From the IMG/VR virus record IMGVR_UViG_3300021409_000094, positions 1-26,495 of that record: 26,495 nt of DNA, one strand, 5' to 3'. The notes beneath the pieces were generated by a model. It made no database searches. It saw only the letters and a list, made by a program, of their open reading frames with translations, and was not told the origin of the DNA. Source of the stretch: a virus. The position numbers were made by a program, and so were the translations under genes. Positions 11,091-16,348 of the stretch are shown here, piece after piece (positions within the stretch are counted from its first letter, which is position 1; each line of letters opens with the position of its first letter).

Positions 11091-11374
11091 ACCCCATCCT
11101 CGATATTCTGGCGGAACTGCAAAACGACCGGGCGCGGGCGGTGTGGCTTTCGACCATTCCGCTCGGCGTCATCCAGCGCGACCATGCCGACATTGCGGCT
11201 GTCCTCGGAGCTGCCGGTTTCTCCGGCGGGCTGGCCTATCTCGCGGCACTCGTCGCTCACGTCAATTCAGTGCGGCTGGAGGACGGGTCGATCCCGATCG
11301 AAACGCGCCAGATCACGGATCATGCCCGCAAACTGATGTGGGGCGCTGTCAAGCAGGGGGAAATGGTGGAATGA
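11087..11374 (+). CDS. Hypothetical early protein (GTG start)
   Basis: A 95-residue protein with a GTG start that overlaps the previous stop (GTGA at 11087-11090). It is predicted to be helical throughout (GVIQRDHADIAAVLGAAGFS, then GGLAYLAALVAHVNSV), with moderately hydrophobic but not clearly transmembrane stretches. The end overlaps the replication gene by an ATGA. Its place directly before the replication protein suggests an accessory role there. No motif supports a specific function. Confidence 0.7.
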   Translation: MNPILDILAELQNDRARAVWLSTIPLGVIQRDHADIAAVLGAAGFSGGLAYLAALVAHVNSVRLEDGSIPIETRQITDHARKLMWGAVKQGEMVE

Positions 11375-12624
11375 CATCTGAACCCCGTCTCTCGATCATA
11401 CCGGGATGGATCGTCACGGACCCGCGCTTGAAGGGTAAGGATCTGCAGGTGATCTGCATGCTGGGGCGGAACGCCAACACCCGCCACGGATGGTGCCGGC
11501 GCAGCCAGGTGAAGCTTGCGGAGGCGCTTTCATGCTCGCGCTCGACAGTCCAGGCGGCGATTGACCGTCTCGTGGAAATTGGTGCGCTGGAGCGCCGCAA
11601 GGTGGAAAGTGCGAGTGGTCGCGACAGCGCTCATTGGTATCGCGTCGTCTACGATTCTGCCGTCGATAGCTCTGCATTTGATGCATGGGACGCTGACGAC
11701 AAAGAGGAATTTGATCCTAATTCCTCCGCTGTAGCTGGTGCACCCCCTGCCGGTATACCGGCACCCCCTGCCGGTCCAGAGTCGGCACCCCCTGCCGGTT
11801 CTGGACCGGCACCTATTAACGCCTCTACCTTAACGCCTCCTGCTAAACGAGAAGAGAGAGAGCGCGCGAGCGAAGACGATGAAGGGGAAGAAAATCCCAA
11901 AGCGCTGGAACGGCGTTTTCGGAAATGGTGGTCATCGTGGCCGACGTACGCGATCGACGCTGAAATGCCGACACGGCGCGCTTGGCAGGATCTGGCGCCG
12001 GAGCAGCGCAAGGCCTGCGAGGAACGGACCCCAGACTATCTCGCTGCGGCCAAGGCCAGCGGTCGCAAGTTCTCGAAGGCTGCGGCCACCTACCTCTCGG
12101 AGCGGGCCTGGGAGCGTCTTGACGACAAGGTCGTGACTAAGGGCCCAAACGTTTCCGAGACCTACACCGCGTACTCACGACCGTGGATGGTCTCATGTCT
12201 AGCGGTTCTTTCTCGATCGCCCGTTCCGCTCATACTCGACAAAATTGAGGATCAGATCGTCGCTTCCAACCCTGAGAAGGAAGATATGATCTGGCGCAAC
12301 AAGCGCATGCAGAGCGGCTGGCCGGAGATCCACAAGCTTTATCAAATCGTCGCAGATCGGAAGCAGATACGTGTGCCGGAGCGTCTCGCCTCCCTGGCTC
12401 CGTATCTGGACAAGGTCGAGGTTGGCGGACCTATTTGGGAAGCTTGGAAGCGACTGTTCCATGAGCGCTCATGGCTATTCATTCCGGAGCCTAAACAACT
12501 CCAGTTCGTGCAGTTCCCTGCCTTGCCGGAGGGCATCGAAGATCCTGATGAGGCAGTTGCTGCTGCCCTTCGCGAGTTCCAGAAGAAGCTGATCGAGGTA
12601 CGGGACCATGACCATGCAGCATAA
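11371..12624 (+). CDS. Winged-helix phage replication protein (lambda O / DnaD-like role)
   Basis: A 417-residue protein. Residues about 1-95 form a winged-helix domain: GKDLQVICMLGRNANTRHGW, then LAEALSCSRSTVQAAIDRLV and a basic wing LERRKVESASGR. Residues about 123-150 are a Pro/Ala/Gly linker containing three PPAG repeats, followed by a charged KREERERASEDDEGEE patch. The C-terminal region (RRFRKWWSSWPTYAIDAEMP, and later LASLAPYLDKVEVGGPIWEA) is of unknown fold. This layout, an N-terminal HTH and a flexible linker, is typical of phage replication initiators. The linker DNA holds three exact 15-base repeats, as in lambda O. The start is by ATGA overlap. The longer in-frame extension to 10990 is a shadow of upstream genes. 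Confidence 0.75.
   Translation: MTSEPRLSIIPGWIVTDPRLKGKDLQVICMLGRNANTRHGWCRRSQVKLAEALSCSRSTVQAAIDRLVEIGALERRKVESASGRDSAHWYRVVYDSAVDSSAFDAWDADDKEEFDPNSSAVAGAPPAGIPAPPAGPESAPPAGSGPAPINASTLTPPAKREERERASEDDEGEENPKALERRFRKWWSSWPTYAIDAEMPTRRAWQDLAPEQRKACEERTPDYLAAAKASGRKFSKAAATYLSERAWERLDDKVVTKGPNVSETYTAYSRPWMVSCLAVLSRSPVPLILDKIEDQIVASNPEKEDMIWRNKRMQSGWPEIHKLYQIVADRKQIRVPERLASLAPYLDKVEVGGPIWEAWKRLFHERSWLFIPEPKQLQFVQFPALPEGIEDPDEAVAAALREFQKKLIEVRDHDHAA
11740..11799 (+). repeat. Three exact iteron-like repeats, candidate replication origin
   Basis: GCACCCCCTGCCGGT occurs three times, 15 of 15 bases identical, at 11740-11754, 11761-11775 and 11785-11799 (start spacing 21 and 24). Two copies extend to an inverted repeat of the form CGGCA-CCCCC-TGCCG. 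A partial fourth copy in ACCGGCACC follows at 11805-11813. They lie inside the linker of the replication gene, like the lambda O iterons. The origin role is inferred. Confidence 0.6.
11816..11839 (+). repeat. TTAACGCCTC direct repeat next to the iterons
   Basis: The ten bases TTAACGCCTC occur at 11816-11825 and 11830-11839. The 14-base offset is not a multiple of three, so the repeat is in two protein frames and is not explained by a repeated peptide. It lies just after the iterons in a locally less GC-rich stretch, where an unwinding or accessory binding element would be expected. Confidence 0.4.
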
Positions 12625-13303
12625 AATCACGGGCAAGAAGATCAGCTACAAGCCAATGATCGCTTCAGACCTGACGAACTCGGAACGGCGAAGGATCGAC
12701 GACGGGAAGGTTAGAGCCGAACGGGCTCGCAATGCGCATCATAATCTCGTGCGGATGGCTCGAAAAGATGTCGCCGGTTTCGATTCTCGGGCTCGTTGGA
12801 TCGTTGGCACTTGCCGTTCTGGAACTGAGCAGGCGATAGGTGAGGAGCTGAAAGAGCAGAAGATCGAGACCTGGTGCCCGCTTGAGCACTTCAGGACAAG
12901 ACCTCGGAGAGGGCTCAAGCCTGTGGATATCTACAGGCCATTCTTCAGGGGGTACCTCTTTGTGCGGGTTGTTCCGTGCCATGAAGCGTTCGCTGGAGTG
13001 CTCTGCGCATCGCGTTTGAACAGCCTCATGGGGCGTGATGGCGAGCCTTTCCTGATGCCTGCAAGGTTGATGGATGCTTTGATGCTGTCTGTTCAAAAAG
13101 ATGATTTAAAACAGGATGATGAGAAGCCTCTGCCGGTTCACAAAGGCGACAGGATTGTCATCCGTTCGGGTCCATTCGTGGACTTCCAGACGACTGTCAG
13201 GAAGGTGATCGGGGAGCGGTGGAAGCTACAGGCTGAGGTGAACATATTCGGCCGCATGACGCCAATTGAGCTGGACATTGACTCTGTCGCGCTCTCGCCG
13301 TAA
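12608..13303 (+). CDS. Phage NusG-family transcription antiterminator
   Basis: A 231-residue protein with a charged N-terminal extension (1-60), an NGN domain (about 62-145: RWIVGTCRSGTEQAIGEELK, then ETWCPLEHFRTRP and IYRPFFRGYLFVRV) and a C-terminal KOW domain (about 176-230: VHKGDRIVIRSGPFVDFQTT, ending NIFGRMTPIELDI). PFFRGYLFVR is the signature of NusG/RfaH proteins and should contact RNA polymerase. It overlaps the replication gene by 17 bases and is the last gene before the late operon, a position like lambda Q. Base composition seems less GC-rich than its neighbours, by eye. The family call is strong. Late antitermination is inferred from position and the downstream hairpins. Confidence 0.88.
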   Translation: MTMQHKITGKKISYKPMIASDLTNSERRRIDDGKVRAERARNAHHNLVRMARKDVAGFDSRARWIVGTCRSGTEQAIGEELKEQKIETWCPLEHFRTRPRRGLKPVDIYRPFFRGYLFVRVVPCHEAFAGVLCASRLNSLMGRDGEPFLMPARLMDALMLSVQKDDLKQDDEKPLPVHKGDRIVIRSGPFVDFQTTVRKVIGERWKLQAEVNIFGRMTPIELDIDSVALSP

Positions 13304-13315
13304 CGATTCGAACAA

Positions 13316-13342
13316 GCCGATGGTGAGTCTATCTCCATCGGC
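13316..13342 (+). promoter_or_regulatory. Hairpin downstream of the NusG-like gene
   Basis: Perfect arms GCCGATGG (13316-13323) and CCATCGGC (13335-13342) with an 11-base loop, 12 bases after the stop codon. No U-tract follows. It could be a pause or antitermination-loading site. A second, weaker stem (GCCTC/GAGGC, 13414-13429) follows. I see no clear promoter in the 206-base gap. Confidence 0.4.
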
Positions 13343-13473
13343 CTACGGGATGACCGGAGCGTCTGATGCTGCCCTTTCGGGTATTGATGTTCTCCTCTGG
13401 CCCCAGCCTTGAAGCCTCTCCAGTGAGGCACCGATTCAGGGCGAGTGCTACAGCTATGAGATGACGAATGATG

Positions 13474-13500
13474 AGGCGGCCGGAAGGTCGCCTTTTGTCG
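13474..13500 (+). terminator. Candidate intrinsic terminator before the late operon
   Basis: Arms AGGCGGCC (13474-13481) and GGTCGCCT (13486-13493) pair over 8 bases with one G-U and enclose a GGAA (GNRA-type) tetraloop. The stem is followed by TTTTGTCGTCTT. It lies 10-17 bases before the HNH gene, exactly where an early/late barrier is expected. The U-tract is interrupted, so strength is uncertain. Confidence 0.5.
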
Positions 13501-13509
13501 TCTTAGAGT

Positions 13510-13878
13510 ATGCCTCGTCTTAAGTCCCTGCCACCTCGACTGACCTCGATGCCGCCTCGTCTTGGCCGTGCTGTCGGTGATGAGAAGGCCAGACTGCGAG
13601 AGCGCGAGATCAACACGCCGAATCGCAGCTGGTATCACAGCGCACGGTGGAAGAAGCTGCGGCTCGACGTTTTCGAACGTGACAGCTGGACCTGTAAGCA
13701 AACCGGAGCGATCTGCCTCGGCACGCATCCCGCTCCTAACAGCCCGGTCTGCGACCACGTCAAGCCGCATCACTGGGACGAGCAGTTGTTCTGGGACATC
13801 GACAACCTGCAGACCGTGACCAAAGCCTACCACGACAGCGAGAAGCAGAAGCAGGAGCGGGCGCAGCCCGGATGGTGA
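13510..13878 (+). CDS. HNH endonuclease of the packaging module
   Basis: A 122-residue HNH protein of the kind found next to terminase genes in HK97-type cos phages. The N-terminal PPRL repeats (LKSLPPRLTSMPPRL) are characteristic of that group. The core includes YHSARWKKLRLDVFERDSWT, a Cys in TCKQTGAIC, then VCDHVKPHHWDEQLFWDIDN and LQTVTKAYHDSEK. The His and Asn residues of the HNH fold are present. In HK97 the equivalent protein works with the terminase during DNA cutting and packaging. It is the first gene of the late operon, just downstream of the candidate terminator. Confidence 0.9.
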   Translation: MPRLKSLPPRLTSMPPRLGRAVGDEKARLREREINTPNRSWYHSARWKKLRLDVFERDSWTCKQTGAICLGTHPAPNSPVCDHVKPHHWDEQLFWDIDNLQTVTKAYHDSEKQKQERAQPGW

Positions 13879-14150: not shown

Positions 14151-14645
14151 ATGAGCGAGATATTTGACCTCTTTGGCCACCCCATTCCGGACTGGAAGGG
14201 GAAGCGAGGTCGCCCGCCTTACGAGGCGACCGAAAAAGATCGCAATAAGATCAAGCTCTTGCTGGCGCTCGGTTGGTCTATCGATCGCATGGCAAACGGA
14301 ATTGGCATCTCTCCGGCCACGCTGAAGCGGTATTTTAGAGCCGAGCTGAAGCAGCGTGATGCCATGCGGGACAGGCTCGACGCTCGCCGGTTCGAGATCG
14401 CGATGGAGCAGTCGAACGCCGGCAACGTCACCGCGCTGAAGGAACTGGGCAAGATGCTCGACAGCAACGACCGCATGGGGATGGACAGCCGGTTGCGCGA
14501 TGCTCAGCAGAAGCGAGCCGTCGCGAAAGAGGACGCCGCTCCGCAAGGCAAGAAGGAAGTGGCGAAGGCGGCGGCGAAGACGGCCGGCGAAGACAGCCAC
14601 TGGGGCAACGACCTTCTGCCGGGTATGGCAGGGAAACCGAACTGA
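14151..14645 (+). CDS. terS: Terminase small subunit
   Basis: A 164-residue protein. The N-terminal part GHPIPDWKGKRGRPPYEATE leads into a helix-turn-helix (LLLALGWSIDRMANGIGISP, then ATLKRYFRAEL), the DNA-recognition element of small terminases. The central helices (MEQSNAGNVTALKELGKMLD) form the oligomerisation region, and the Lys/Ala-rich tail is probably the TerL contact. It is followed directly by TerL with a one-base TGATG overlap. The start has no strong ribosome site and a T-run just before it. The function, selecting phage DNA for packaging, is well supported by context. Confidence 0.9.
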   Translation: MSEIFDLFGHPIPDWKGKRGRPPYEATEKDRNKIKLLLALGWSIDRMANGIGISPATLKRYFRAELKQRDAMRDRLDARRFEIAMEQSNAGNVTALKELGKMLDSNDRMGMDSRLRDAQQKRAVAKEDAAPQGKKEVAKAAAKTAGEDSHWGNDLLPGMAGKPN

Positions 14646-16348
14646 TGGACACGGCATGGATGCCGGCTACTGCCTGGTCGACCGCTGTTCCAGACTGGAA
14701 GGAACGTATCCGGCTTCAGCATTCGCTAATCCCGGATCTTCCGCTCTTCGACAAGGTCGCCGAAAAGGCGCTTCGGATCTTCAAGCGGCTTCGTGTCCCC
14801 GATGTCATTGGCAATCCTACCTACGGCGAAGCGTGCGACGACTGGGTCTTTGATATCGTCCGGGTCATCTTCGGGAGTTATGATCCGGACCTGAAGCGGC
14901 GCATGTTGCGAGAATTCTTCCTGCTCGTGCCGAAGAAGAACGGAAAGTCGTCGATCGCCGCAGCCATCATGGTGACGGCGGCGATCCTCAACGAGAGGCC
15001 TGAAGCCGAGCTGCTGCTGATCGCGCCGACGAAGACGATTGCCGGGATCTCGTTCAAACAGGCTGCTGGCATCGTTCGCCTGGATGCGGAGCTTTCCAAG
15101 CTCTTCCACATCCAAGACCACCTTAAGATGATCACCCACCTCAACACGCTTGCGGTGATCATCGTCAAGGCTGCAGCAGCGGACGTCATCACCGGGTCCA
15201 AAGCGACCTACATTTTGATCGACGAGACGCATGTCTTTGCGACCATGGCGAAAGCTGCCGACATCTTCGTCGAGATCCGGGGTTCACTCGCCGCGCGTCC
15301 AGACGGGTTCCTGGCGCAGATCACGACACAGTCGAAGACGCCGCCAACAGGCGTCTTCAAGGCTGAGCTGAAAAAGGCGCGCGACGTTCGGGATGGGCTT
15401 TTCGCGTTCCCGATGTTGGCGGTTCTCTACGAGCTGCCGCCGGAAGATGCAGTCGACGGTGGATGGATGCGCCGTGAGCGTTGGGGCTTGGTCAATCCCA
15501 ATCTCAATCGTTCGGTCGACGAGGACTACCTTGCTGGCGAGATCGCGACGGCTATGCGCGAGGGGCCGGAGAAACTGGCTCTGATCGCGTCGCAGCACTT
15601 CAACGTCGAGATCGGCCTTGGCCTTCACGCCGATCGATGGGCCGGCGCGGATTATTGGCTTGCAGCTGCCGTGCCAGGCATGACGTTGGATCGTCTACTT
15701 GCCGACTGCGACGTCGCCGTCGTCGGCGTTGACGGTGGCGGCCTCGACGACTTGATGGCGATTGCCGTCATTGGCCGGCACAAGGAAAGCAGGAACTGGC
15801 TGCACTGGGGTCGCGCATGGGCGCACGAAGATGTCTTCCAGCGCCGTCAGGAGATCGCTCCTCGCCTTCGCCAGTTCGAAGAGGAAGGCGACCTGGTCGT
15901 CTGCAAGGAAGTCGACGACGATGTGAAGGAAATCGCCGACATCTGCGAACGCATTCACGCTTCGGGACTTCTGCCGGAGCGTGCCGGGATTGGCCTCGAC
16001 TCTTACGGGATTGCAACCCTCCTCGATGTTCTGGCGGAACGCGGCCTCGAAGGCGATCTCACACTTGCTGTCGGTCAGGGCTGGAAGCTGCAGTCGGCAA
16101 TTACGACACTGCCGCGCAAGCTCAAAGATCGGACGATGGTACACTGCGGACAGCCGCTCATGGCGTGGGCTGCGGGTAACGCGAAGACTGAGCTTCGGGG
16201 CTCTAACTATCTCGTCACCAAACAGGCTGCCGGCGCTTCGAAGATCGACCCGCTCATGGCGCTGTTCAATGCCGCTATGCTGATGTTTCTCAATCCGGAA
16301 GCCTCCGGCCGCTCGGTCTATGAGACACGCGGAATAAGGATGATCTGA
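14645..16348 (+). CDS. terL: Terminase large subunit
   Basis: A 567-residue packaging motor of the HK97-type terminase family. ATPase motifs are Walker A VPKKNGKSS (95-103), Walker B YILIDE (189-194) and coupling motif TTQS (about 227-230). The nuclease domain starts at about 355, with the metal-binding Asp363 in VVGVDGGGLDD, and continues to further acidic residues (about 415 onward). The length is usual. It cuts concatemeric DNA and drives it through the portal, using the TerS-bound site. The gene overlaps terS by one base and is followed four bases later by the portal gene. Confidence 0.97.
   Translation: MDTAWMPATAWSTAVPDWKERIRLQHSLIPDLPLFDKVAEKALRIFKRLRVPDVIGNPTYGEACDDWVFDIVRVIFGSYDPDLKRRMLREFFLLVPKKNGKSSIAAAIMVTAAILNERPEAELLLIAPTKTIAGISFKQAAGIVRLDAELSKLFHIQDHLKMITHLNTLAVIIVKAAAADVITGSKATYILIDETHVFATMAKAADIFVEIRGSLAARPDGFLAQITTQSKTPPTGVFKAELKKARDVRDGLFAFPMLAVLYELPPEDAVDGGWMRRERWGLVNPNLNRSVDEDYLAGEIATAMREGPEKLALIASQHFNVEIGLGLHADRWAGADYWLAAAVPGMTLDRLLADCDVAVVGVDGGGLDDLMAIAVIGRHKESRNWLHWGRAWAHEDVFQRRQEIAPRLRQFEEEGDLVVCKEVDDDVKEIADICERIHASGLLPERAGIGLDSYGIATLLDVLAERGLEGDLTLAVGQGWKLQSAITTLPRKLKDRTMVHCGQPLMAWAAGNAKTELRGSNYLVTKQAAGASKIDPLMALFNAAMLMFLNPEASGRSVYETRGIRMI

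Follow-up and report, generated by a model that had tools for sequence, protein, structure and literature searches.

A NusG paralog gene, a large leader RNA and a terminator-like hairpin form a predicted late-gene switch in phages of rhizobial bacteria

LoaP, a NusG paralog found in Bacillus and further Bacillota, is known from the dfn and mln operons, and the criteria used to recognize it include that it binds RNA specifically and antagonizes NusA. In the free state RfaH has an α-helical CTD, and it is the ops DNA element that recruits it. Members of the UpxY family of Bacteroides capsule operons are encoded beside the operon under their control, and the lambda Q protein loads via a DNA element at a promoter-proximal pause. 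Antitermination is the function of the known NusG paralogs that have linked targets (PMC7819879, PMC12691694), and LoaP provides a precedent in which a leader RNA hairpin is combined with an intrinsic terminator (PMC12691694). The put RNA of HK022 modifies RNA polymerase without a phage protein (PMC9378689).

We analyzed a 26,495-nucleotide stretch of viral DNA from an IMG/VR record (the window), the phage of which looks temperate, HK97-like and rhizobial. The closest working analogue of the system found there is LoaP rather than RfaH. In both cases an NGN plus KOW paralog is accompanied by a leader RNA and then an intrinsic terminator, and read-through into a long operon is predicted (PMC12691694); the LoaP-type arrangement of RNA hairpin and terminator before the target operon is present in the window. 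The differences are that LoaP uses the small UNCG hairpin of dfn, whereas the phage RNA is composed of three elements (P1, P2 and P3) and is about 100–130 nt long, that LoaP targets antibiotic operons rather than late genes, and that the phage paralog has an N-terminal extension and is encoded directly upstream of its presumed target. The first-pass annotation had placed the protein closer to RfaH, which also is an operon-specific antiterminator, as the phage paralog is predicted to be. We have revised this assignment because the RfaH cut-off was missed, because the CTD is a β-barrel KOW domain in the AlphaFold2 model (although AlphaFold2 cannot exclude fold switching) and because ops does not occur beyond chance. 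The leader lacks ops, and the window has a single match with one mismatch, which is at 1909 and outside the leader; 1.3 such matches are expected by chance. The UpxY genes resemble the phage gene in adjoining the target operon, but UpxY has no phage late operon. Lambda Q likewise switches on late genes by antitermination but is unrelated to NusG, and put shares with the predicted phage system the modification of RNA polymerase by a nascent RNA element but has no need of a phage protein.

The gene itself has been annotated before, as a "transcription antiterminator" (phrog_6386) in phi3LM21, phi2LM21 and PPF1, and PMC12429752 reports a gene of this name in all phiLM21-like prophages. A term search of that paper yielded no RNA element, and our literature search, in which coverage of subscription papers was thin, found no phage NusG-RNA system. 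The leader RNA and a phage switch of this kind are new to the databases and papers searched.

The phage NusG paralog and its gene neighborhood

On the right arm of the window a CII-like regulator gene is followed by genes for a DNA methyltransferase, replication initiation, the NusG-like protein, an HNH protein, a TerS-like protein and TerL (Table 1). The replication-initiation and NusG-like genes overlap by 17 nt, and the same neighbor recurs with overlaps of 14–32 nt in phi3LM21, phi2LM21, Rivra, PPF1 and vB_MseS-P1. Profile matches confirmed that packaging genes follow the gap behind the NusG-like gene, as claimed earlier, and vB_MseS-P1 has an annotated TerS in the position equivalent to that of the likely small terminase subunit. 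A close relative of the window phage, with 95% protein identity, is present in the Rhizobium sp. Leaf306 genome. On the minus strand, positions 1380–2420 resemble a phage Gp37/Gp68-type gene, and such a gene is annotated on the corresponding arm of phi3LM21.

Table 1 Coordinates of features in and around the NusG paralog gene and its leader RNA
Feature	Position in window	Strand	Basis or comment
Replication-initiation (HTH) gene	11371..12624	+	phrog_270, E=2.5e-29; upstream neighbor of NusG-like gene
Phage NusG paralog	12608..13303	+	231 aa; Pfam, phrog_6386, PDB relatives, AlphaFold2 model, Foldseek
Class I leader RNA element	13348..13459	+	R1 covariance model; covariation of P1 and P2
P1 5' strand, CCGGAG	13354..13359	+	pairs with 13395-13400
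P1 3' strand, CUCUGG	13395..13400	+	pairs with 13354-13359
P2 hairpin	13406..13442	+	outer stem 13406-13412/13436-13442; inner stem 13414-13418/13425-13429; conserved bulge ACCGAU 13430-13435
Conserved tail GUGCUACAGCUAUG with P3 (GC-tetraloop-GC)	13445..13458	+	near-invariant across 58 sequences
Intrinsic-terminator-like hairpin and T-rich tail	13473..13499	+	ends 10 nt ahead of HNH start codon
HNH endonuclease, first late gene	13510..13878	+	phrog_589, E=8.3e-22
Likely small terminase subunit	14151..14645	+	by position and HTH; phrog_12540, E=1.6e-47 (function unknown); weak TerS match
Large terminase subunit, HK97 type	14645..16348	+	phrog_9, E=3.2e-101

The NGN plus KOW protein proposed by the first-pass annotation is real. 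The PFFRGYLFVR signature is present, and the protein matches Pfam NusG over residues 63–158 (E=3.1e-10; taken alone, the Pfam match to KOW is weak) and phrog_6386 (E=7.8e-31). Its PDB relatives are NusG and RfaH, with the NusG alignments covering both domains, and both are also part of the fold modeled by AlphaFold2 (pLDDT 77.5), for which Foldseek returned NusG and RfaH. The protein consists of an N-terminal extension (residues 1–61), an NGN domain (about residues 62–158) and a KOW domain (about residues 178–229), the last two in the order that defines the NusG/Spt5 superfamily. It scored far below the cut-offs for housekeeping NusG (TIGR00922, 61.0 vs 135.7), LoaP (NF033641, 30.8 vs 125), RfaH (TIGR01955, 39.1 vs 144.5) and UpxY (NF033644, 52.6 vs 100), and the main family matches of 35 aligned relatives were likewise NusG, RfaH, LoaP and UpxY. 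In a tree of 83 core domains, built by a quick method and having some long branches, the phage proteins were split from host NusG with a support of 100. All 36 aligned family members match phrog_6386, but as this model matches housekeeping NusG as well, the name "transcription antiterminator" is inherited. In a class-wide protein search with phrog_6386 the housekeeping NusG proteins drowned the other matches, and the E. coli-type NusG matches in the phage collection sit on Salmonella chromosomal contigs; both were set aside.

The charged N-terminal extension had been described as missing from cellular NusG, and sequence comparison with rhizobial housekeeping NusG agrees, in that none was found there. 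The extension contains 15 K/R and 7 D/E residues, is modeled by AlphaFold2 as a long helix (residues 24–57), begins M.MQ and is common to the aligned phage relatives, which makes it, by sequence, a feature of the family. In three loci (L094, L095 and L096) the NGN/KOW cores are closely similar but the extensions attached to them differ, as though recombination had exchanged them; the extension is thus modular.

The leader RNA and the terminator-like hairpin

The gap between the NusG paralog and HNH genes (13304–13509) is 206 nt long, as had been claimed, and is indeed structured, with a folding z of −3.6 and only 1 of 200 shuffled sequences folding as well. In relatives the gap contains an element that we call the class I leader, in which GGAUGA is followed by helix P1 enclosing a variable insert, then CCC, the bulged P2 hairpin and the conserved P3 tail. 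The limits of the element were placed by eye using conserved anchors. The covariance model R1, built from 58 sequences, matched the window at 13380–13460 with 69.3 bits (E=2e-17; the window is among the 58 sequences). Of 62 loci with the GGAYGA motif, 58 have it 15–20 nt from the first stop-codon base; in the window the distance is 47 nt.

The 3' strand of P1 in the relatives lies mostly about 80–100 nt beyond the 5' strand, immediately ahead of CCC. P1 is fully paired in 52 of 62 distinct loci, vs a mean of 14 when partners were swapped among loci, and is made up of 24 different sequence pairs, such as GCTGA/TCAGC, TCCGA/TCGGA, TCTGC/GCAGA, TCTTG/CAAGA and TCCTA/TAGGA. The energy model by itself shows no preference for P1 in the window. 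For the P2 stems 92.1% of cells are paired, and covariation was 0.178 vs 0.098 for shuffled alignments (0 of 500 reached the observed value) and at most 0.097 for slid versions. The tail, AGUGC-NNNN-GCUAUG, is almost constant with pairs 81-88 and 82-87 invariant; covariation therefore cannot test P3 pairing, and the constancy suggests a contact with the protein or RNA polymerase. An alternative helix given by RNAalifold (columns 70–76 with 87–93) was rejected, as it lacked covariation. Chance can be dismissed mainly by comparison, in that conservation and covariation of the leader extend over dozens of separate phage loci. Counts of G-U vs A-C in the P2 stems (21 vs 33) gave no decision on the strand, which thus was argued from gene direction and the terminator rather than from wobble pairs. 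No Rfam family matched the leader at the gathering score; the matches at relaxed threshold were far under it. Two annotated features, a hypothetical protein of PPF1 (PPF1_92, L212:2457-2609) and the start of the vB_MseS-P1 HNH gene (L215:3259), lie inside the leader RNA and are probably annotation errors.

The last hairpin of the gap had been called terminator-like. Its stem stands: GAGGCGGCC-GGAA-GGTCGCCTT (13473–13494) has a folding z of −3.3, and 0 of 200 shuffles were as good. A generic terminator scan passed over the hairpin, the T tract of which (TTTTGTC) is imperfect. In relatives the same stem carries TTTTTCGTTT. Of 75 distinct loci, 72 have a GC-rich hairpin and T-rich tail 3' of the element, and in 63 of the 75 the hairpin lies within 45 nt of it. 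The usual spacing between element and hairpin is about 10–15 nt, but several loci have 64–151 nt, and mostly even there the hairpin ends about 16 nt ahead of the next start codon. Hence the terminator belongs to the late gene, and the spacing of about 16 nt leaves no room for a late promoter between the two. The varying spacing from the element argues that the element can act over variable distances, as expected of processive antitermination. At one locus a tRNA-Met gene (L051:1258-1334, minus strand) lies between the leader element and the downstream terminator-like hairpin.

A second class of leader (TAGCGAATCTCA..GGACGAGCCGA..GCGCCATCGGCCCCAGGTGA..TCACCGCAATGG) keeps the P1 design but has a different 3' half. 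Class II consists of eight sequences (L064, L067, L069, L173 and L176–L179), and their paralogs form one clade with a support of 97 (labels corrected by eye). Across the protein tree the leader class required 5 label changes vs 16.6 when shuffled. The confinement of class II to one paralog clade argues that leader and protein have evolved together. Ahead of the late gene the class II leaders show no obvious terminator, which speaks against a mechanism bound to one terminator, and the target in those phages must be Rho or later terminators. Five loci (L172, L174, L175, L059 and L182) have other leaders behind their NusG-like genes, with a GGAYGA/P1 start but belonging to neither class.

Linkage of gene and RNA across phages and prophages

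Protein family, structured RNA, RNA covariation, gene linkage and terminator position are all observed at the sequence level. Sinorhizobium phage phi3LM21, the paralog of which is only 26.6% identical to that of the window, has the same gene order and a 223-nt gap with a recognizably conserved stretch. The 24-nt core of this stretch occurs exactly in 31 viral contigs, and in all 30 contigs with enough upstream DNA a NusG-like gene precedes it, ending 85–146 nt before.

Searches of 298 Rhizobiaceae genomes were made from both directions. R1 gave 33 strong matches (E<1e-8) with a NusG-like gene directly upstream of 33 of 33 (30 loci checked and 3 judged by coordinates), plus three weak matches with E above 0.002. 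As some loci had also fed the model, the linkage test rests on the neighboring gene rather than on the R1 match. Starting from the protein, the class I element was found in 24 of the 29 best prophage loci, and 3 of the remaining 5 have a different leader of similar organization. Genome by genome, strong elements and NusG-like prophage genes were equal in number. The element is missing at L054 and at a truncated paralog (L180); at L074, L107, L108 and L137 it was missed by the strict pattern but was recognized on reading the sequences. Locus counts include related phages, with duplicates removed by sequence difference only. Among the 50,697 phage records of INPHARED the protein of a relative (L008) found six distinct phages, and the RNA was present in 6 of 6. 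R1 found no element in 288 other alphaproteobacterial genomes, and thus the modeled form looks restricted to phages of Rhizobiaceae. One Nostoc phage record (Nsp-JY10, PP395642; L214) contains the Rhizobiaceae-phage leader, and its NusG-like gene shares 49% identity with that of L008; the stated cyanobacterial host is doubtful.

The predicted switch and its alternatives

We think it quite probable, from sequence comparison, that an RNA-recruited phage NusG paralog switches on late transcription by antitermination. The most likely reading is that in many viruses of rhizobial soil bacteria the virus's copy of NusG, a universal transcription factor, a folded RNA and a terminator together let the polymerase enter the late genes. 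We infer RNA binding, polymerase binding, read-through and timing as follows. In the early phase of infection or induction the rightward early transcript would cross the replication and NusG-like genes and end at the terminator before the first late gene. Once accumulated, the paralog would be recruited to elongating RNA polymerase by the emerging leader RNA (P1, P2 and P3), with the NGN domain binding polymerase and the extension and/or the KOW domain probably contacting RNA. The modified polymerase would then pass the terminator and proceed along the late operon. As the element emerges right after the stop codon of the gene, the paralog may load in cis. The first-pass proposal of a NusG-family late antiterminator acting at a hairpin leader thus gains strong comparative support, since the RNA is never found without the gene, the terminator is held about 16 nt from the late start and the late modules behind the cassette are unrelated.

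That the RNA alone might modify RNA polymerase, with the NusG-like protein acting elsewhere and merely a neighbor, is suggested by the large, highly structured element just ahead of a terminator and by the put precedent of an RNA that acts by itself (PMC9378689). We consider this unlikely because such an RNA should have spread without the gene, yet gene and RNA were together in 33 of 33 and 30 of 30 cases, and because the leader class tracks the protein tree. Autoregulation, in which the protein would bind its own 3' UTR and promote termination or RNA decay to limit late expression, could account for an element that begins right after the gene. It seems rather more improbable, given that the known NusG paralogs with linked targets antiterminate (PMC7819879, PMC12691694) and that a pure repressor leaves a terminator immediately ahead of the whole late operon unexplained. 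With its structure and terminal intrinsic terminator, the 3' UTR also resembles a small RNA acting in trans, but the spacing of the terminator is fixed to the late gene and not to the RNA, and class II leaders lack the terminator, which makes this very improbable. It is scarcely credible that the element is a packaging site (cos or pac), despite its position just ahead of terminase genes, since P1 and P2 are preserved as RNA helices by compensatory changes, the element is several genes from the terminase in some phages, and the same NusG-RNA cassette precedes two unrelated terminase types, HNH/TerS/HK97-type modules (phrog_9) and modules of a minor tail protein and a lambda-gpA-type terminase (phrog_15).

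Antitermination by an RNA-recruited NusG paralog would, we are inclined to believe, represent a phage late switch of a class not described before, with an antitermination ribonucleoprotein assembled from the paralog, possibly loaded in cis, and a large leader RNA that co-evolves with it. There would be at least two leader classes, one of them acting with no terminator just ahead of the late genes. If so, phage NusG paralogs are a second, large, phage-encoded lineage with a partner RNA that is much larger and outside Rfam, and this may explain how, in the absence of a Q-like protein, many rhizobial temperate phages activate their late genes. Since paralog and RNA show joint variation over dozens of phages, the RNA specificity of NusG paralogs becomes directly testable, and possible laboratory hosts for such tests include Agrobacterium with phage Rivra. 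In three loci (L008, L015 and L037) reverse-oriented ORFs are inserted directly after the element and before the late genes, 58–963 nt past the core.
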